Shown here: in pieces, positions 53,042 to 64,000 of the stretch
How positions within the stretch are numbered: position 1 is the first letter of the stretch
How the letters are laid out: every line of letters begins with the position of its first letter
NCBI GenBank assembly: GCA_025612375.1
Contig: JAAXKN010000006.1
Location: 62,001 to 126,000 of the forward strand
DNA: 64,000 bases
DNA from: Ignavibacteria bacterium
GTDB lineage: Bacteria; Bacteroidota; Ignavibacteria; Ignavibacteriales; SURF-24
Reading direction: 5' to 3'
Notes under the pieces: generated by a model
Seen by the model: only the letters and a program-made list of their open reading frames with translations
What the model was told of the DNA's origin: nothing
The model's database searches: none
Made by a program: the position numbers and the translations under genes

Positions 53042-53069
53042 TTAACAATTAATTAACACCTAATGTCAC
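53042..53069 (+). promoter_or_regulatory. Pho-box-like direct repeats upstream of phoU
   Basis: TTAACA at 53042 and 53053 (N5 between, 11-bp period), with a weaker third copy TGTCAC in register at 53064. The repeat form equals the PhoP box of Bacillus (TTAACA-N5). It lies about 150 bases before the phoU ATG. Confidence 0.7.
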
Positions 53070-53215: not shown

Positions 53216-53899
53216 ATGCAGGAAAACTTCGTAAAAGAAACAGAGAGCTTAAAAGAAAACCTCATTAAAATGGCATCGCTCGTCGATGAACAGGTAGGAC
53301 GCGCAGCCAAGGCTCTTGAAACCGGAGACATTGAACTCTGCAAAGGCATGAAAGCCAGGGATAATGAAGTAGATGCCTACGACAACCTGATAAATACACA
53401 GTGCGAAAATATACTCGCCCTTTTCCAGCCCGTTGCAAGCGACCTGAGATTCATTCTCTCGGCACTTATGATCAATAACCAGCTGGAGCGCTGCGGCGAC
53501 ATTGCGGTTAATATTGCTCAGCGCGTAAAGAAGACCAAAGGCTTTCACGACCTCATTATTGAATCTAAAATTGTGGAAATGGGTGCCCAGGCCAGAAAAA
53601 TGGTGCAGGATGCCATAGACTCATTTATTAACAGAAGCACTGAACGCGCCCGCCAGGTGCTGGATTCAGATGACGTTGTAGACAAGCTCAATAAAGAAAC
53701 TTTTAAGTTCCTTGTAGCCAAAATGCAGGCGGACCCCTCGCTTATTGAACCTGCAAGCCACCTGATCGTCTTATCGCGGCATGTTGAACGCCTTGCCGAC
53801 CACGCCACAAATATTGCCGAAGACCTGGTCTTCTACGTGGATGCAGAGTTTATTACACACAAAAAGAAACTTGATAAAGGCGGCGAGCCGGTAGAATAG
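53216..53899 (+). CDS. phoU: PhoU, phosphate signalling protein
   Basis: 227 residues, all helical, made of two three-helix PhoU units. Conserved metal-binding acidic clusters are ..KARDNEVDAYDNLINTQCEN, DLRFILSALMINNQLERCGD (each with E/DxxxD and NQLERCGD) and in the second unit VLSRHVERLADHATNIAEDL. PhoU links Pst transport activity to PhoR/PhoB signalling and shuts off phosphate genes when phosphate is plentiful. It is transcribed alone and faces the pst operon end to end. A tandem Pho-box-like site lies upstream. Confidence 0.95.
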   Translation: MQENFVKETESLKENLIKMASLVDEQVGRAAKALETGDIELCKGMKARDNEVDAYDNLINTQCENILALFQPVASDLRFILSALMINNQLERCGDIAVNIAQRVKKTKGFHDLIIESKIVEMGAQARKMVQDAIDSFINRSTERARQVLDSDDVVDKLNKETFKFLVAKMQADPSLIEPASHLIVLSRHVERLADHATNIAEDLVFYVDAEFITHKKKLDKGGEPVE

Positions 53900-53985: not shown

Positions 53986-54762
53986 TCAGCCATACTTTCC
54001 TGAAATATATTCTTCCGTCAGTTTGTCCTTGGGCTTTGTAAATATTGCCTTCGTATTGTTAAACTCTATCATTTTCCCCAGGAGCATATAACCCGTATAT
54101 TCCGAAACGCGGGCTGCCTGCTGCATGTTGTGTGTTACAATTACAATGGTGTAATTCTTCACCAGATCAAGCATCAGTTCTTCAACCTTCATTGTCGCAA
54201 TCGGGTCCAGAGCCGAGCACGGCTCATCCATCAGAATCACTTCAGGCTCCACTGCAAGCAGCCTTGCTATGCAGAGCCTCTGCTGCTGGTCCAGCGGGAG
54301 TTCAAGCGCCGGATGGTCAAGCTTATCCTTCACATAATCCCACATCCATGCGCCCTTAAGGCTTCTTTCGGCGGCTTCATCCAGAATCTTTCTGTTCCTG
54401 ACACCTGCCACCTTAAGCCCGTAGGTAACGTTCTCATAGATTGAAAGAGGAAAAGGGTTTGGCCTCTGAAAAACCATCCCCACGCGTTTTCTTAAGTCGG
54501 TTACTTGCATCTCCTGGCTGTAAACGTCCATGTCATCCAATGTTATGCTGCCTGTTACTTTTGTGCCCGGTATTAAATCATTCATGCGGTTAAGGCACCT
54601 GAGGAGAGTGGACTTACCGCAGCCCGACGGTCCGATTAAAGCCGTAATTTTATTTCTTTCTACCGGCATGGAAACTGATTTCAGCGCCTGAAACCTTGTG
54701 TAAAACAGGTCCAGATTTGAAACCTCCATTTTATTTTTTATGTCAGTTATTAAGTTTTCCAT
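53986..54762 (-). CDS. pstB: PstB-like phosphate ABC ATPase lacking the LSGGQ signature (heterodimer partner)
   Basis: 258 residues. Intact: A-loop Tyr21, Walker [10 protein letters not shown] (44-52), Q-loop Gln99 (VFQRPNPFP), Walker B ILMDEP with catalytic Glu180, switch His211 (IVTHNMQQA). Altered: the signature reads LPLDQ (155-159) where the family has LSGGQ; the next residues QQRLCIAR are normal, so this is a local substitution. In ABC dimers the signature acts on the ATP held by the other subunit. The adjoining ATPase at 54762 keeps LSGGQ but has lost the Q-loop and switch residues. The two together should form one complete site and one dead one. The start shares one base with that gene's stop. 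Confidence 0.9.
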
Positions 54763-55517
54763 CAGCCGAATCTTCCTGTAATATAATCATGAGTTTCCTG
54801 TTTTTTAGGGGCAGTAAATATCTGCCTTGTAAGCCCCATTTCTATCATTTCCCCCATAAGGAAATATGCCGTCTTGTCTGCCACGCGGGCAGCCTGTTTT
54901 GTATTATTTGTCACTAGTATAATTGTGTATTCTTTTTTAAGCACCGTAAGAGCGTCTTCTATCTTTGCCGTTGAAATTGGGTCCAGCCCCGAGCACGGCT
55001 CATCTAAAAGAATAACCTCGGGCTTCATTGCAAGCACGCGCGCCAGGCAGAGTCTCTGCTGCTGGCCACCGGAAAGCCTGAGACCCGAGAGCTTCAGGCG
55101 GTCCTTGACCTCATCCCATATAAAAGCCGCACTGAGGCTTTTTTCCACCAGTTCGTCAAGCTGTGCTTTGCTGCTTATGCCCGAGAGCCTCGGCCCGTAG
55201 ACAACGTTTTCATAAATGCTCATGGGAAGAGGAACGGGCATTGCAAAAACCATCCCCACTTTCTTTCTTAACGTAACCACGTCAACTTCAGCATTATAAA
55301 TGTTCTGCCCGTCCATCAGGATTTCACCTTCAGTCCTGCTGCCCGTTTCAAGTTCATTCATCCTGTTTAATGACCGGAGGAATGTGGTTTTTCCGGAACC
55401 CGCGGGCCCTATAACGCCAAGTATCTCCCGGTCGGTAATATCCATATTGATGCTCTTTAAGACCGGGTGACTGTTATTAAAAAAGCTGAAGTTCTTTATC
55501 TGAAATTTTGTACTCAT
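54762..55517 (-). CDS. pstB: PstB-like phosphate ABC ATPase lacking Q-loop Gln and switch His (heterodimer partner)
   Basis: 251 residues. Intact: Walker [10 protein letters not shown] (37-45), signature LSGGQ (148-152), Walker B ILLDEP with Glu173. Altered: Q-loop Gln is Ala92 (VFAMPVPLP where PstB has FQRPNPFP), the switch His is Asn204 (LVTNNTKQA), and the A-loop lacks the usual Tyr (NFSFFNN). Its own ATP site should be slow or dead, yet it supplies a good signature to the partner's site. It follows pstA by five bases and runs into the second ATPase gene. The frame is open and well conserved, so it is not a decaying copy. Confidence 0.9.
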
Positions 55518-57265: not shown

Positions 57266-58063
57266 TTAAGACTTTGCAGGTAAAAGCCCGTTATCTTTTA
57301 TTGTCTTCTGCCCTTCCGGAGAAAGTATATAGTCTATGAAATTCTTTATTTCTCCCTTCGGCTCTCCCTTTACAAGAAGGAATATCGGCCTTGAGAGTTT
57401 ATAGCTTCCGCCAACAATGTTATCAACCGTGGGCTGTATGCCGTCTAATGTAAGTGGCTTAACCTTCTCGTTTACAAGTCCGTGTGAAAGATAGCTGATG
57501 GAATTCGGATCATTTGATACGGTCTCGCGTATTGTGCCGTTTGAGTCCTGTATGAGGGCGTCTTTTTTAAGCTGAATGTTTCCGATGATCTTTTCAAAAG
57601 ATGATCTCGTGCCTGAACCGGCTTCTCTTGAGACCACGGTAATCGGAGCGTCCTGGCCGCCGACTTCCTTCCAGTTAGTGATCTTGCCGTTAAATATGTC
57701 GCGCACCTGGTCTGTTGTAAGATTTGTAATGGGGTTCTTTGGATTTACAACAATTGCAACCCCGTCCCTTGCAACTATAACCGAGGTCAGCCCTTTGGCC
57801 TCATCCGGCAGCTGAACCAGGTCAGCCATTCCCACCTGTGCGGCACCGGAGTTTGCGGACTGGATACCAACGGCTGAGCCGCCACCCTGGACAGTTATGT
57901 TTACGTTATTATGCGACTGCATGTACTGTTCTGCCAGTTTCTCGGCAAATGGCTGGAAGGCTGTAGACCCTGCCAGTGTAACGGAAGTTTTGGATCTTCC
58001 GCATCCGAAGACCATAAGAGCTGCCAGAACGGCTATTGAGGCTAAAACTGATTTTTTTGACAT
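57266..58063 (-). CDS. pstS: Phosphate-binding lipoprotein PstS, system 1
   Basis: 265 residues. The lipobox ALMVFGC gives a lipidated Cys21. The binding protein has the phosphate-type motifs LAGSTAFQPFAEKLAEQYM, GGGSAVGIQSANSG, VVSREAGSGTRSSFEKII and FIDYILSPEGQKTIKDNG. The AGSGTRSSFE loop contacts phosphate. It heads a leftward operon with pstC, pstA and two ATPases. A TTAACA-type repeat lies 145 bases upstream. Confidence 0.94.
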   Translation of the reverse strand: MSKKSVLASIAVLAALMVFGCGRSKTSVTLAGSTAFQPFAEKLAEQYMQSHNNVNITVQGGGSAVGIQSANSGAAQVGMADLVQLPDEAKGLTSVIVARDGVAIVVNPKNPITNLTTDQVRDIFNGKITNWKEVGGQDAPITVVSREAGSGTRSSFEKIIGNIQLKKDALIQDSNGTIRETVSNDPNSISYLSHGLVNEKVKPLTLDGIQPTVDNIVGGSYKLSRPIFLLVKGEPKGEIKNFIDYILSPEGQKTIKDNGLLPAKS

Positions 58064-58206: not shown

Positions 58207-58225
58207 ACTTAACAATTTGTTAATA
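58207..58225 (-). promoter_or_regulatory. Pho-box-like repeats upstream of pstS (system 1)
   Basis: TTAACA-N5-TTAATA on the + strand (58209 and 58220). The same bases give TTAACA and TTAAGT in 11-bp register on the minus strand (58218-58223 and 58207-58212), and TTAACAA-T-TTGTTAA is also a perfect palindrome. It is weaker than the four-copy arrays but in the expected place, about 145 bases before pstS. Confidence 0.5.
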
Positions 58226-58324: not shown

Positions 58325-59029
58325 TCAAGCAGCCTTTTCATGGCTTCTAATGCGGTAGCCCACACCCTTAACTGTTTCTATCATTTCTGCATGAGGACCA
58401 AGTTTCTCGCGTATTTTCCTTATATGCACGTCTATTGTCCTTTCCGTTATATAGGAGTCCTCTCCCCATATCTCATTTAATATTGTTTCACGTGTCATAA
58501 CCCTGCCGGGCTTCATTGCTATGCAGGAAAGGATTTCAAACTCTTTTTTAAGGAAATGGGCATTTACGCCGTCAACACGGACTTCAAACTTCTCCCTGTC
58601 TATTTCCAGCGGGCCCAGTATTAAAACGGATGTCGTCCCGTTTTCCCCGCGGGAAAGTTTTTCTATCCATCTGAGGTTTGCCCTGATACGGGCAATAAGT
58701 TTTTTCGGGGAAATCGGTTTAGCCACAAAATCATCGGCTCCCATTTCAAGTCCCATAACCTCGTCAGACTCGGCGGACTTCGCAGTAAGAAATATCAGTG
58801 GGATGCGGCAGGTGTTTTTATCTTCACGAATTCTCCTGCAGGCCTCATAGCCGTCCATCTCCGGCATCATTACGTCCATTATTATCATGTCGGGCTTTTC
58901 CGTCAATCTTTCAAGTGCCTCGCGGCCGTTATTGGCACAGATCACCTGAAAACCCTCGCGCTCAATATTGTACTTTAATAATTCTACAATATCCTTTTCA
59001 TCATCAACGATCAAGATTTTACCTTTCAT
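58325..59029 (-). CDS. phoB: PhoB-type phosphate response regulator
   Basis: 234 residues from the ATG at 59029 (AGGAAAAT just upstream). A longer reading to 59092 would overlap the phosphoesterase gene. Receiver: acidic pair VDDEKD, phosphoacceptor Asp52 in MIIMDVMMPEMDGY, TAKSAESDEVMGLEMGADDF and KPISPKK. Output: an OmpR/PhoB winged helix (LILGPLEIDREKFEVRVDG, MTRETILNEIWGEDSYITER, TIDVHIRKIREKLG, IETVKGVGYRI). It probably binds the TTAACA arrays of this region. No phoR kinase is in the window. It lies 25 bases after the phosphoesterase gene and is cotranscribed with it. Confidence 0.93.
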   Translation of the reverse strand: MKGKILIVDDEKDIVELLKYNIEREGFQVICANNGREALERLTEKPDMIIMDVMMPEMDGYEACRRIREDKNTCRIPLIFLTAKSAESDEVMGLEMGADDFVAKPISPKKLIARIRANLRWIEKLSRGENGTTSVLILGPLEIDREKFEVRVDGVNAHFLKKEFEILSCIAMKPGRVMTRETILNEIWGEDSYITERTIDVHIRKIREKLGPHAEMIETVKGVGYRIRSHEKAA

Positions 59030-59054: not shown

Positions 59055-59975
59055 CTAAAAACAAACCACCTGCATTTGGGGATAGCTCTCACGAAGCTTT
59101 AACTCTTTTTTATCCGGCAGTACTACGTTTTCTGTCATAATGGAAGCGCCATCTACGGTTATTGAATTATAACTGATCCTCTCAGGAAACCCGGGACGGA
59201 AAGTCTCACCCGCATTCAGGCATCTTATTCCCTTCTTTGAGTATTCAACAGATTCATGCACATGCCCGTGAAGGGCAAGTTTTACATTGCCGCTTTGCAG
59301 GAACTTCAAAAACTTTTTCCTTCCCCTCAGCTTCATCGCCTCATTTTCAATCCGTGCCCAGATACTGCTTTCGTTGCTGAAAGAAAAAAACGGCACTTTG
59401 TAAAAATGATGATGTACCAGTGCTACTGCCGTTTTATCCATATATTTTCCGGAACTGAATATTTCCCTGAGGCCATCGTACTGGCTTTCGGATATTTTCC
59501 CTTTTGAGGCAAAAAGATTTTTCATCTTCGAGTATTCGCTGATCGAGTTGATTCCCAGCAGGACAACTTCACCCAGGTCCTTGGCATATGGGAAGAAATC
59601 ATCTCCCGGTGCATATATCCTCTCAAACGCCTCGCGGAAGTATACTTCAAATTCCCTCAATTTCATTTTATAGTTGGTCCTGCTGCACTTTTCCGGAAAT
59701 CCGATTATGTCCTCGGCAAACTGTATCCCGCCGTATATGTCGTGATTTCCAATTACAACGGAAAGCTTATTTGTATCCAGAAGATTGAACTCTTCCAAAA
59801 GCTTCCTTATCAGCCTGAATTCTTTTTCATTACCGTTCTCGGTAATGTCCCCGGTAATTACTACGTGATCATAATTATTGTTTATTATGTGTTCCAAAAG
59901 TCTGCGTGCATTTTTTATATTACTGAAGTTCCGCCTGGTGCAGACATGTAAGTCTGAGATATGAGCTATTTTCAT
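59055..59975 (-). CDS. Calcineurin-like metallophosphoesterase
   Basis: 306 residues with the full metal set: DLHVCTRRN (D-x-H), VVITGDITENG (GD), VVIGNHDIYGG (GNHD), VHHHFYKVP and LHGHVHESVEYS (GHxH). No signal peptide, so cytosolic. Such enzymes cleave phosphomono- or diesters; the substrate is unknown. It forms an operon with phoB and has a four-copy Pho-type array directly upstream, so it should be made at low phosphate and may release phosphate from an internal ester. Confidence 0.9.
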   Translation of the reverse strand: MKIAHISDLHVCTRRNFSNIKNARRLLEHIINNNYDHVVITGDITENGNEKEFRLIRKLLEEFNLLDTNKLSVVIGNHDIYGGIQFAEDIIGFPEKCSRTNYKMKLREFEVYFREAFERIYAPGDDFFPYAKDLGEVVLLGINSISEYSKMKNLFASKGKISESQYDGLREIFSSGKYMDKTAVALVHHHFYKVPFFSFSNESSIWARIENEAMKLRGRKKFLKFLQSGNVKLALHGHVHESVEYSKKGIRCLNAGETFRPGFPERISYNSITVDGASIMTENVVLPDKKELKLRESYPQMQVVCF

Positions 59976-60015
59976 TTATTCCTTTTTTTTGTTTTTAACC
60001 AAAATAATGTTCCAA

Positions 60016-60054
60016 TGTTAACTAATTGTGAATTTAATGTTATTTCTGTATTAA
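60016..60054 (-). promoter_or_regulatory. Four-copy Pho-type array upstream of the phosphoesterase-phoB operon
   Basis: Minus strand reads TTAATA, ATAACA, TTCACA and TTAACA, each separated by five bases, with copies starting exactly 11 bp apart (+ strand 60016, 60027, 60038, 60049). It lies 41-79 bases before the ATG at 59975, and implies phoB autoregulation. Confidence 0.72.
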
Positions 60055-60058
60055 GTTT

Positions 60059-60823
60059 TCAGCCAAATCTTCCTGTAATATACTCCTCCGTTTTCCTCAG
60101 TGAAGGCTTGGTAAACATTGTTCTGGTCTTGCCGTATTCAATAAGCTCGCCCATGTAGAAAAACGCCGTATAATCGCTTACTCTTGAAGCCTGCTGCATA
60201 TTGTGTGTAACTATGACAATAGTGTACTTATGTTTCAGTTCAACCAGCAGCTCTTCAATCTTTGCCGTTGATATGGGGTCGAGCGCGCTTGCGGGCTCAT
60301 CTAAAAGAATTATCTCCGGATCAACGGCCAGGGCCCTTGCAATGCAGAGCCTCTGCTGCTGCCCGCCGGAAAGCCGAAGGGCATTTTCATTAAGCCTGTC
60401 TTTAACCTCGTCCCAAATGGCAGCCTGCCTTAATGTCCTTTCTACAATTTCATTTAATGTTTTCTTATCCTTTATCCCGTTTAATTTCGGTCCGAAGACC
60501 AGGTTGTCATAAACCGATCTCGGGAAAAGATTAGGCTTCTGAAAAACCATCCCCACCTTCTTTCTCAGTTCAACTATATCTATATTACCCTCATAGATGT
60601 TTACGCCGTCAATAACCACTTCCCCTTTTATTCTCACCCCTCCAATCAGGTCGTTCATCCTGTTTAGAGTTCTTAGGAATGTCGACTTTCCGCATCCGGA
60701 AGGGCCTATAAATGCCGTAATTTGGTTGGTAAAAATATCAAGCGAAATATCTTTTAACGCCTGCTTCTGCCCGTAAAAAAGATTAAGACTTCGGGTTTTG
60801 ACCTGTACTTTTTCTTCTTTCAT
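60059..60823 (-). CDS. pstB: Canonical phosphate ABC ATPase PstB
   Basis: 254 residues with all motifs intact: Tyr17, Walker [10 protein letters not shown] (40-48), Gln95 in [14 protein letters not shown] (151-155), ILLDEP with Glu176, and His207 in IVTHNMQQA. This makes the losses in the two other ATPases stand out. It is a single gene on the minus strand, divergent from a porin-pstS-pstC group that begins at 61106 and probably supplies that second Pst system. Two Pho-type repeats precede it. Confidence 0.95.
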
Positions 60824-60898: not shown

Positions 60899-60915
60899 TG
60901 TTAAGTTATTGTTAA
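60899..60915 (-). promoter_or_regulatory. Pho-type repeats upstream of pstB (third copy)
   Basis: Minus strand TTAACA-N5-TTAACA (+ strand TGTTAA at 60899 and 60910, 11 bp apart), 76-92 bases before the ATG at 60823. Confidence 0.68.
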
Positions 60916-60978: not shown

Positions 60979-61017
60979 TTAACAGTTTCTTAACACTAAC
61001 TTAATACTCCTTTAACA
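60979..61017 (+). promoter_or_regulatory. Four-copy Pho-type array upstream of the porin-pstS-pstC operon
   Basis: TTAACA at 60979, TTAACA at 60990, TTAATA at 61001 and TTAACA at 61012, each with five bases between. This is an exact 11-bp period over four copies, the cleanest array in the window. The porin ATG is at 61106, so the array fits just before a promoter. Confidence 0.82.
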
Positions 61018-61105
61018 CATCTTTTTTAAGATTCTTATATGTTAAAAAAGTCAATATTTATTGGCAATTAAACGAACACAACAAAAACAATCACATTGGA
61101 AAACC

Positions 61106-62149
61106 ATGAAAAAAATAATTCTGTTTTCGGCACTAGTTCTGGTTCTCGCGAATTCCTTAGCAGCACAGGAGAAACCCTCTCCCAAACTAAGCGGACTTAT
61201 GTTCGGCGATTACTTTTATAACATCGACCAGAGGGATTCTTCAAAGAAGAACCTGAACGGTTTTCAGTTCAGAAGAATATATGTAACTGCAGATTATACT
61301 GTTTCGGAATCGTTCGACACAAGATTCCGCCTTGAGGCAGATCAGTCAGCCTCATCGCTTACCTCAGGCGGGAAGATCGGCGTTATGGTTAAGGACGCTT
61401 ACCTTAAATGGAAAAATATTTTCCCGGGCAGCGACTTCTATTTCGGCATCTCTCCTACACCTGAAATTGAAACAGCAGAATCGTTCTGGGGCTACAGATC
61501 ACTTGAAAAAACAATTACCGACTTAAACGGCATCGTCTCTTCACGCGATTTGGGTGTGGACCTCCGGGGTAAGTTTGATGAGGCCGGGGCAGTTAAATAC
61601 TGGGTTAAAGTAGGAAACAATTCCGGCAATGCACCTGAAGTAAATAAATATAAACGCTTCTATGGTATGCTCCAGTTTATCCCATTGAGCTTTTTCCAGT
61701 TCACCCTCTACGGCGACTATGCCTCATATGCACCTAAGGCTGATGCTCTGGACAAGAAATCAAAGAGCAATAACTCATTTGTTGGTGCACTCAACCTGAA
61801 CTTCTTCAGGAAAGACCTCTTTTCGGCTGGCATTGAAACATTCTATAAAACCCAGGAGAACAACTTTGCCATGGATAAGTTAAGCCCTCTTAAGACACAA
61901 AACGGCTACGGAGTTTCGGCATACGCATGGTACAGAATTCTTGACAGGGTCCGGCTGGTTGGCAGATACGACAAGTACAACCCTAATACTGACATGGATA
62001 AGAACGACAGGACGGACCTCATTCTTGGTGCCGTTGACTTCCAGGTTGACAAAAACGTAAGCATTATGCCTAACCTGGAGTCCGTAAAGTACTCGGGCAT
62101 TAAGGCAGGGGATCTTATTGGAAGAGTAACATTTTCTTATCAGTTCTAA
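61106..62149 (+). CDS. Phosphate-selective-type outer-membrane porin (OprO/OprP family)
   Basis: 347 residues from the ATG at 61106. The signal peptide is MKKIILFSALVLVLANSLAA then Q. An earlier reading from 61061 only adds polar residues before it. The mature part is a barrel (FQFRRIYVTADYTVSESFDT, YLKWKNIFPGSDFYFGISPT, ITDLNGIVSSRDLGVDLRGK) that ends LIGRVTFSYQF with terminal Phe. The pattern fits OprP-type porins. It is the first gene before pstS and pstC under the four-copy Pho array, so phosphate entry across the outer membrane is the likely role. Confidence 0.85.
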   Translation: MKKIILFSALVLVLANSLAAQEKPSPKLSGLMFGDYFYNIDQRDSSKKNLNGFQFRRIYVTADYTVSESFDTRFRLEADQSASSLTSGGKIGVMVKDAYLKWKNIFPGSDFYFGISPTPEIETAESFWGYRSLEKTITDLNGIVSSRDLGVDLRGKFDEAGAVKYWVKVGNNSGNAPEVNKYKRFYGMLQFIPLSFFQFTLYGDYASYAPKADALDKKSKSNNSFVGALNLNFFRKDLFSAGIETFYKTQENNFAMDKLSPLKTQNGYGVSAYAWYRILDRVRLVGRYDKYNPNTDMDKNDRTDLILGAVDFQVDKNVSIMPNLESVKYSGIKAGDLIGRVTFSYQF

Positions 62150-62178: not shown

Positions 62179-63204
62179 ATGAAATCAAAGTTTTTAATAA
62201 TTCTCGGTATACTTCTGGTCTCATCTGTAATGAACGCACAGATGAAGCTTAACGGCGCAGGGGCTACTTTCCCATACGTTATTTATTCAAAATGGTTCGA
62301 TGTCTACCATCAGAAAACAGGCATTCAGTTTAACTACCAGTCGATTGGAAGCGGCGGAGGCATTAAGCAGGTAATTGAAGGCACAGTGGATTTCGGCGCC
62401 TCGGATGCCCCGATGTCGGACGAACAGCTGAAGGAAGCCCGTTCAAAGCAGGGCAGCGAAATTCTCCACATACCAACTGTAATGGGCGCTGTGGTTGTAA
62501 CTTACAACCTGCCTCAGACTGGCAAGGGTCTGAAACTCTCTCCTGAAGTGCTTGCAGACATTTTCCTTGGAAAAATCAAAAAGTGGAACGATTCCAGGAT
62601 CACCTCTATTAACAAGGGCATGAAGCTGCCCGACAAGGCAATATTTGTTGCCCACCGCTCCGACGGCAGCGGGACTTCAAACATTTTTACCGGATACCTT
62701 TCAAAGGTCAGCGGCGAGTGGAAAAGCAAGGTTGGACAGGGTACTTCTGTTAACTGGCCCGCCGGACTCGGCGGCAAAGGCAACGAAGGCGTTGCCGGAC
62801 TTGTAAAGCAGACACAAGGCGCAATTGGCTACGTTGAACTGGCCTACGCCGTGCAGAACGGACTGCCCTATGCGGCACTTAAGAATAAAGCCGGGAATTT
62901 TGTAGAACCAAATTTTGCCAATGTTTCTGAGGCCGCTGCAGGTTTTATCAAGAAAATGCCCGCGGACCTGAGAGTTGAAATAACAAATGCCGACGGGAAA
63001 AACTCCTATCCGATTTCAGGATTCACATGGCTTTTAATCTATAAAAATATGAAAGATAAAAACAAAGCAAAGGCCATTGCAGACTTCCTTAAATGGGCTG
63101 TTACAGAAGGGCAGAAATTTGCTCCTGGACTTTACTACGCTCCACTTCCAAAGGAAGTTGTAAAACTGGATGAAAAGAAAATTTCAAGCATCGCGGTGAA
63201 ATAA
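62179..63204 (+). CDS. pstS: Phosphate-binding protein PstS, system 2
   Basis: 341 residues, longer than the first PstS and of the E. coli type. Signal peptide MKSKFLIILGILLVSSVMNA then Q, no lipobox. Binding motifs are LNGAGATFPYVIYSKWFDVY, YQSIGSGGGIKQVIEGTVDF and GASDAPMSDEQL, HRSDGSGTSNIFTGYLSKVS, TSVNWPAGLGGKGNEGVAGL and YVELAYAVQNGLPYA. Periplasmic. It is 29 bases after the porin gene and two bases before pstC. Confidence 0.96.
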   Translation: MKSKFLIILGILLVSSVMNAQMKLNGAGATFPYVIYSKWFDVYHQKTGIQFNYQSIGSGGGIKQVIEGTVDFGASDAPMSDEQLKEARSKQGSEILHIPTVMGAVVVTYNLPQTGKGLKLSPEVLADIFLGKIKKWNDSRITSINKGMKLPDKAIFVAHRSDGSGTSNIFTGYLSKVSGEWKSKVGQGTSVNWPAGLGGKGNEGVAGLVKQTQGAIGYVELAYAVQNGLPYAALKNKAGNFVEPNFANVSEAAAGFIKKMPADLRVEITNADGKNSYPISGFTWLLIYKNMKDKNKAKAIADFLKWAVTEGQKFAPGLYYAPLPKEVVKLDEKKISSIAVK

Positions 63205-63206
63205 CT

Positions 63207-64000
63207 ATGAACGTGAAAAACAGGGGCCGGGAGGAAATAAGCCTTGAGCTGAAAGCAACCGGTCCCTTCAGGGGTAAATCTGACCTTGAGTCCATGCCTG
63301 GATTCAGGGGCGGTATTATTTTCAGGAAGAACCGCGGCGACTTTATCTTTGAAAACCTAACCAGGTTCTTTGCCTTTTTGATTTTTGTACTCGTATTCCT
63401 AATGGGCTACCATATGATCGTACAGTCCCTGCCCTCAATAAATAAGTTCGGCTGGAGTTTTATTACCTCAGAAACCTGGGACCCGGTTAAGGAAAACTTT
63501 GGCGCACTGCCCTTTATATTCGGTACACTTTTTTCATCACTTCTTGCCCTTATCATCTCTATTTTCTTAAGTATAGGCACTGCAGTATTCCTTTCCGAAC
63601 TTGCCCCGGCGTGGCTTGAAAAAACGGTATCCGTACTCATTGAGCTCCTGGCGGCAATACCAAGCATTGTATATGGACTCTTCGGCATCTTTGTCCTTGC
63701 CCCATGGCTCAGAGATTCGGTTGAACCGTGGCTTGGAGACCGCCTTGGTTTTCTCCCTCTTTTTAACGGGGCACCTTACGGATTCGGGATGCTTTCGGCA
63801 GTCCTTATTCTGACAATAATGATTCTGCCTATAATAACCTCAATTTCGAGGGACATTATGCGCTCAATCCCCATGGCGCAAAGAGAAGCAGCCTTTGCTC
63901 TTGGAGCCACCAAATGGGAAGTCGTGCTCGTCGTCTTATCAGCCGCGAAGTCGGGCATTCTTGGCGCTGCCCTTCTTGGCCTTGGACGCGCTCTGGGCGA
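63207..64000 (+). CDS. pstC: Phosphate ABC transporter permease PstC, system 2 (cut by window edge)
   Basis: 264 codons are visible from the ATG at 63207 with no stop before the edge. After a polar N-terminal stretch of about 55 residues come membrane spans and PstC landmarks: FGALPFIFGTLFSSLLALII, GTAVFLSELAPAWLEKTVSV, ELLAAIPSIVYGLFGIFVLA, ISRDIMRSIPMAQREAAFAL and GATKW (ATPase contact loop), GLGRALG at the edge. The long extra N-terminus and a GxPxFNGAP insert differ from the PstC of system 1. It starts two bases after the pstS stop, so it is coupled to it. pstA is expected beyond the edge. Confidence 0.93.
   Translation, partial: MNVKNRGREEISLELKATGPFRGKSDLESMPGFRGGIIFRKNRGDFIFENLTRFFAFLIFVLVFLMGYHMIVQSLPSINKFGWSFITSETWDPVKENFGALPFIFGTLFSSLLALIISIFLSIGTAVFLSELAPAWLEKTVSVLIELLAAIPSIVYGLFGIFVLAPWLRDSVEPWLGDRLGFLPLFNGAPYGFGMLSAVLILTIMILPIITSISRDIMRSIPMAQREAAFALGATKWEVVLVVLSAAKSGILGAALLGLGRALG

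Follow-up and report, generated by a model that had tools for sequence, protein, structure and literature searches.

Direct repeats with a period of about one helical turn are general to the OmpR/PhoB family of response regulators. The PhoP box of Bacillus subtilis consists of a TTAACA-like unit with an 11-bp period, often present in four copies. In Escherichia coli, PhoB sites overlap the -35 region of the promoter (PMC3348028), and in the structure of PhoB bound to DNA, Arg201 makes a bond to one guanine per half-site and Arg219 to bases lying between them (PMC3973317). The primary sigma factor of the Bacteroidetes recognizes a -7 box, TAnnTTTG (PMC7366714). According to the available text of three papers on members of this phylum, Bacteroides fragilis PhoB binds a pstC promoter fragment in an electrophoretic mobility shift assay (EMSA) (PMC3547664), low phosphate induces TonB receptors and PhoB within the phosphate regulon of Flavobacterium johnsoniae (PMC8115612), and Riemerella anatipestifer PhoP was studied by EMSA on a TonB-receptor promoter (PMC9603813).

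Here we describe TTAACA arrays in a pst locus of an Ignavibacteria genome. The window, by which we mean the whole 64,000-nucleotide stretch of DNA that was analysed, carries genes of two Pst systems, and the arrays are very probably, judging from their sequence and setting, the Pho boxes of a PhoB-type activator, positioned where the -33 promoter element would be, a constant 9 bp from TAnnTTTG.

TTAACA arrays in the pst locus

On the plus strand, a porin gene (61106-62149; PF07396, phosphate-selective porin O and P, E 5.5e-06) is followed by pstS (62179-63204; TIGR00975) and pstC (63207-63998, continuing beyond the end of the window; TIGR02138) of system 2. The minus strand carries pstB of system 2 (60059-60823; TIGR00972), a calcineurin-like phosphoesterase gene (59055-59975; PF00149), a gene for a PhoB-type response regulator (58325-59029; best models NF053854 and TIGR02154), and pstS of system 1, or pstS1 (57266-58063; TIGR02136); phoU lies on the plus strand (53216-53899; TIGR02135). 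Each of the Pst and PhoU assignments scores over the cut-off of its model. Curated models also name two PstBs of system 1, encoded on the minus strand at 53986-54762 and 54762-55517. One has intact Walker A, Q-loop, and H-switch motifs with the signature LPLDQ, and the other has an intact LSGGQ with VFAMP at the Q-loop and VTNN at the H-switch; this complementary-looking pair is kept in the related genomes G001, G003, and G004, and its motifs suggest an asymmetric heterodimeric ATPase.

Four units with a period of 11 bp lie upstream of porin-pstS-pstC at 60979-61017 on the plus strand, starting at 60979, 60990, 61001, and 61012 (TTAACA-gtttc-TTAACA-ctaac-TTAATA-ctcct-TTAACA). An earlier, sequence-only reading of this DNA had counted four exact copies here; the third is in fact TTAATA, so that three units are exact and one has a single mismatch. 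The array is most likely two adjacent Pho boxes, as predicted from its letters. The same reading placed a four-copy array on the minus strand before phosphoesterase-phoB, and this is indeed present at 60016-60054, but only one of its units is exact and three carry one mismatch each (TTAATA, ATAACA, TTCACA, TTAACA). The two-copy sites that it reported upstream of pstB of system 2 (60899-60915, minus strand) and of phoU (53042-53058, plus strand) are both exact. A weaker site had been proposed near 58207 before pstS1; a site is there, but on the opposite strand to that supposed. The plus strand gives the better fit (TTAACA-N5-TTAATA at 58209-58225, one mismatch, versus two for the minus-strand reading), and the units therefore point away from the gene. 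They overlap the palindrome TTAACAAATTGTTAA.

When both strands of the window were scored, four-unit scores at period 11 reached 23/24 and 21/24; the highest score in 300 dinucleotide-preserving shuffles was 19/24, and at the other periods from 7 to 22 the window never exceeded 18. The whole genome was examined by pattern searches with the reversed pattern as control, a genome-wide scan being the check that the sequence-only reading had proposed, and the outcome depended on stringency. Exact TTAACA-N5-TTAACA pairs are rare outside the locus: there are 6 in 5.23 Mb, compared with 0 for the control, and three of the six fall within 8 kb, in this pst locus (p near 1e-7 for three of six pairs in about 8 kb of 5.23 Mb, by our own arithmetic). 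A three-unit scan that allowed up to 3 mismatches stayed at control level (15 matches versus 14), as did a composite scan for array plus TAnnTTTG at 3 mismatches (12 versus 12). Since the three-unit matches equal the control at 3 mismatches, loose scans are uninformative, and they were not used as evidence. With at least two direct-repeat units of 11 nt, a position before phosphate-acquisition genes, and rarity elsewhere, the sites have the form and distribution of Pho boxes.

The fourth exact pair, on contig C33, lies between a PF01663 phosphodiesterase gene and a divergent TonB-receptor-like gene, and another is found about 400 bp ahead of a sulfhydrylase-like gene. The pair at C58:16203 (L270 in our list of sites, in G000) probably has nothing to do with the Pho signal: the genes around it are prophage-like, further TGTTAAC repeats occur among them, and the TTAACA and TGTTAAC repeats there are perhaps phage repressor operators.

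Conservation and promoter spacing in relatives

Fifty-nine related genomes were scanned for three units with at most one mismatch. This gave 87 matches versus 13 for the reversed control, and 38 of the 59 genomes had a match versus 8 for the control pattern. Merging left 63 distinct arrays, none of which (0/63) lies inside an open reading frame of at least 100 aa. The genes downstream encode TonB receptors (19 arrays), porins (15), glycosyltransferase-like proteins (5), PstS (4), PhnD (2), acyltransferases (2), PstB (1), a phosphoesterase (1), and a DUF47 protein (1), although the reference proteins for the TonB-receptor, glycosyltransferase, and acyltransferase classes were drawn from the arrays themselves, so that those three classes are descriptive and functional specificity can be claimed for only about 24 of the 50 assignments. 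Downstream of the remaining 13 of the 63 arrays, no gene of a phosphate type was recognised, and the 13 control sites lack genes of the array-linked classes altogether. The unit consensus is TTAACAWTNNC, with a conserved C present in 165 of 195 units. The unit is, as the earlier reading held, nearer to the Bacillus PhoP box than to the E. coli CTGTCAT.

Some of the arrays in relatives are near a glycosyltransferase-like gene and an orthologue of the window's phosphoesterase (L113, L116, L151), an arrangement that would fit phosphate-saving lipid remodelling. A different repeat was encountered in G003, where three reversed-control matches fall within 420 bp (C39:10031-10444; L258-L260) in the form of direct repeats of ACAATT with a period of 11, perhaps the sites of another regulator.

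G001, which belongs to the same genus, is syntenic over the whole locus, and the intergenic DNA has diverged except in blocks that coincide with the arrays: those at 60979 (porin), 60016 (strongly), 60899 (pstB), and 53042 (phoU) are all conserved. In G003, too, a three-unit array is directed towards pstB. The phoU site is conserved in G001 only, and was absent before PhoU orthologues outside the genus. The units at pstS1 (58209-58225, L240, L241) are directed away from it in G000, G001, and G004, overlapping the palindrome in two of the three genomes, and none was seen in G003.

The arrays in relatives also have a fixed position relative to the promoter. TAnnTTTG, matched at 5 or more of its 6 defined positions, follows the last unit at a distance of exactly 9 bp in 34 of the 63 arrays, and 22 of these matches are perfect; every other offset from 0 to 44 accounts for at most 3 arrays, and the background rate is 1.04%. 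Arrays in the relatives thus overlap the upstream element of the promoter and keep a constant distance from its core, while the -7 match is weaker in the window. There, the candidate -7 element TAAGATTC (61027-61034, plus strand) matches at 4/6 positions 9 bp after the 60979 array, and the candidate TATTTTGG (59999-60006, minus strand; contig match C6:121999-122032) at 5/6 positions 9 bp after the 60016 array. At the phoU (53042) and pstB (60899) sites, nothing at 9 bp matches the -7 element well, and TAnnTTTG is not enriched before the other genes of the window. In Flavobacterium-type phoB loci the same layout of array, 9 bp, and TAnnTTTG is found 21-32 bp before pstS, porin, TonB-receptor, and DUF47 genes; 1.14 Mb of such loci gave 33 pattern matches, some of them overlapping, versus 6 for the control. 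Sampled across the phylum, 69 of 395 genomes contain this layout at one mismatch.

Candidate regulators and alternative explanations

The genome encodes two PhoBs that are 61% identical, that of the window and a second (C3:203137-203844) on a contig other than the window's. The second adjoins a PhoR-type kinase, and most relatives checked likewise have phoB and phoR as a pair; the window PhoB has no adjoining kinase gene and is an orphan paralogue. Its closest named relatives are from Ignavibacteria metagenome-assembled genomes, and together with its G001 counterpart it branches separately within Ignavibacteria, with weak support for where the branch lies. A PhoB-type regulator and a PhoR-type kinase, the components on which a Pho box depends, are thus both encoded, all with scores below the curated NCBIfam cut-offs (for the window PhoB, 224.5 of 296.2 bits with TIGR02154 and 235.7 of 270 bits with NF053854). 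The PhoR kinase model matches the genome 86 times. The PhoB recognition helix is kept, and RTIDVHIRKIREKL is common to both paralogues. In the alignment of Bacteroidota PhoBs, the residue corresponding to E. coli 219 is invariably Lys; the one corresponding to 201 is Lys too, with the single exception of G011_L237, where it is Asn. Loss of the guanine contact made by Arg201 would fit the change from TGTCA to TTAACA, as a correlation only.

The sequence-only reading took the signal shared by these units to argue for direct PhoB control. The shared signal is borne out, in that the repeat is present at porin-pstS-pstC, phosphoesterase-phoB, pstB, and phoU, is rare elsewhere, and recurs at orthologues; the regulator that was implied is less straightforward, the phoB of the window being the orphan paralogue. 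We infer binding by a PhoB-type protein, with either paralogue a candidate. In the mechanism we propose, each TTAACA unit of the 11-bp direct repeats would be occupied by one subunit of a phosphorylated regulator, the subunits lying head-to-tail, and a four-unit array would accommodate two dimers. With its last unit 9 bp upstream of TAnnTTTG, the array would extend over the position of the -33 element, where the regulator would recruit RNA polymerase carrying the primary sigma factor, as class II activators do. The signal would be phosphate shortage and the direction of control activation, switching on the porin for outer-membrane uptake, PstSCAB, the phosphoesterase, and the locus's own PhoB.

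The arrays might instead be bound solely by the PhoB encoded in the locus, as a locus-specific regulator split off from the main phosphate regulon. The orphan phoB does sit behind the 60016 array, and both it and the whole locus are conserved in the same genus (PhoB is 73% identical in G001), yet most relatives checked have only the phoB-phoR type of PhoB, at the threshold used, and still carry arrays before porin-pstS. The recognition helices of the two PhoBs are nearly identical, which makes separate sites unlikely, and we regard this explanation as doubtful. Less probable still is that the repeats belong to another OmpR/PhoB-family regulator that is not specific for phosphate and acts near these genes by chance. 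The whole family uses direct repeats of about one turn, the 86 kinase-model matches point to many two-component systems in the genome, and a PhoP from Riemerella whose core motif is TTTAACA has been linked with aerotolerance and with membrane genes (PMC9603813). Against this, the genes downstream in relatives are mostly for phosphate, phosphonate, and outer-membrane uptake, and half of the exact pairs in the genome are in the pst locus.

That the repeats are phased AT-rich DNA, bent or acting as an UP-like element to stimulate the promoter without a specific protein, would agree with their composition and with a phasing near one helical turn. It is very improbable, however, given a specific unit with a conserved C in place of A-tracts, the failure of dinucleotide-keeping shuffles to reproduce the arrays, and a functionally specific gene context. 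Chance matches in AT-rich intergenic DNA, to which the control-level yield of the loose scans might seem to point, can be given almost no weight, being contradicted by the strict scans, the shuffles, the conservation, and the fixed spacing, all of which exceed the control.

Comparison with described Pho systems

Our preferred reading, Pho boxes of a PhoB-type activator, may extend well beyond this locus. On balance we favor a Pho promoter common to the Bacteroidota, Ignavibacteria included, in which an 11-bp TTAACA array 9 bp upstream of TAnnTTTG replaces the -33 element of an unusual primary sigma factor and is read by PhoBs with Lys for Arg201 and Arg219. This would show how operator and promoter are laid out for phosphate control in Bacteroidota, where promoters are unlike those of sigma-70. 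TTAACA-N5-TTAACA-N9-TAnnTTTG could serve as a search pattern to predict the phosphate regulons of uncultured Bacteroidota, and the proposed link between the change in box sequence and two PhoB residues is directly testable. Sites of this kind are already familiar; what has no match in the open-licence literature searched is the spacing rule across the phylum and the link to the two residues. The one counterpart that this literature yielded to a TTAACA Pho box in Bacteroidota was the Riemerella PhoP motif.

The arrays share the TTAACA-like unit and the period of 11 with the Bacillus PhoP box, whereas B. subtilis differs in having Gram-positive promoters and sigma factors and no outer-membrane targets. 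Within the phylum, the DAP-seq motif of R. anatipestifer PhoP is closest, its most conserved nucleotides being TTTAACA; the available text, however, likens that protein to ArcA and links it with aerotolerance and virulence, and it mentions neither an array at a fixed distance from TAnnTTTG nor pstS (PMC9603813). The searched text on B. fragilis (PMC3547664) and F. johnsoniae (PMC8115612) gives no box sequence. The overall plan is that of the E. coli PhoB regulon, with 11-nt direct repeats arranged head-to-tail, a PhoB-type winged helix, overlap with the -35 region, and pst targets (PMC4415409, PMC3348028). Unlike in E. coli, the unit is TTAACA rather than CTGTCAT, Lys replaces Arg201 and Arg219, the spacing is set relative to TAnnTTTG rather than to a sigma-70 -10 element, and porin and TonB-receptor genes are frequent targets in relatives.
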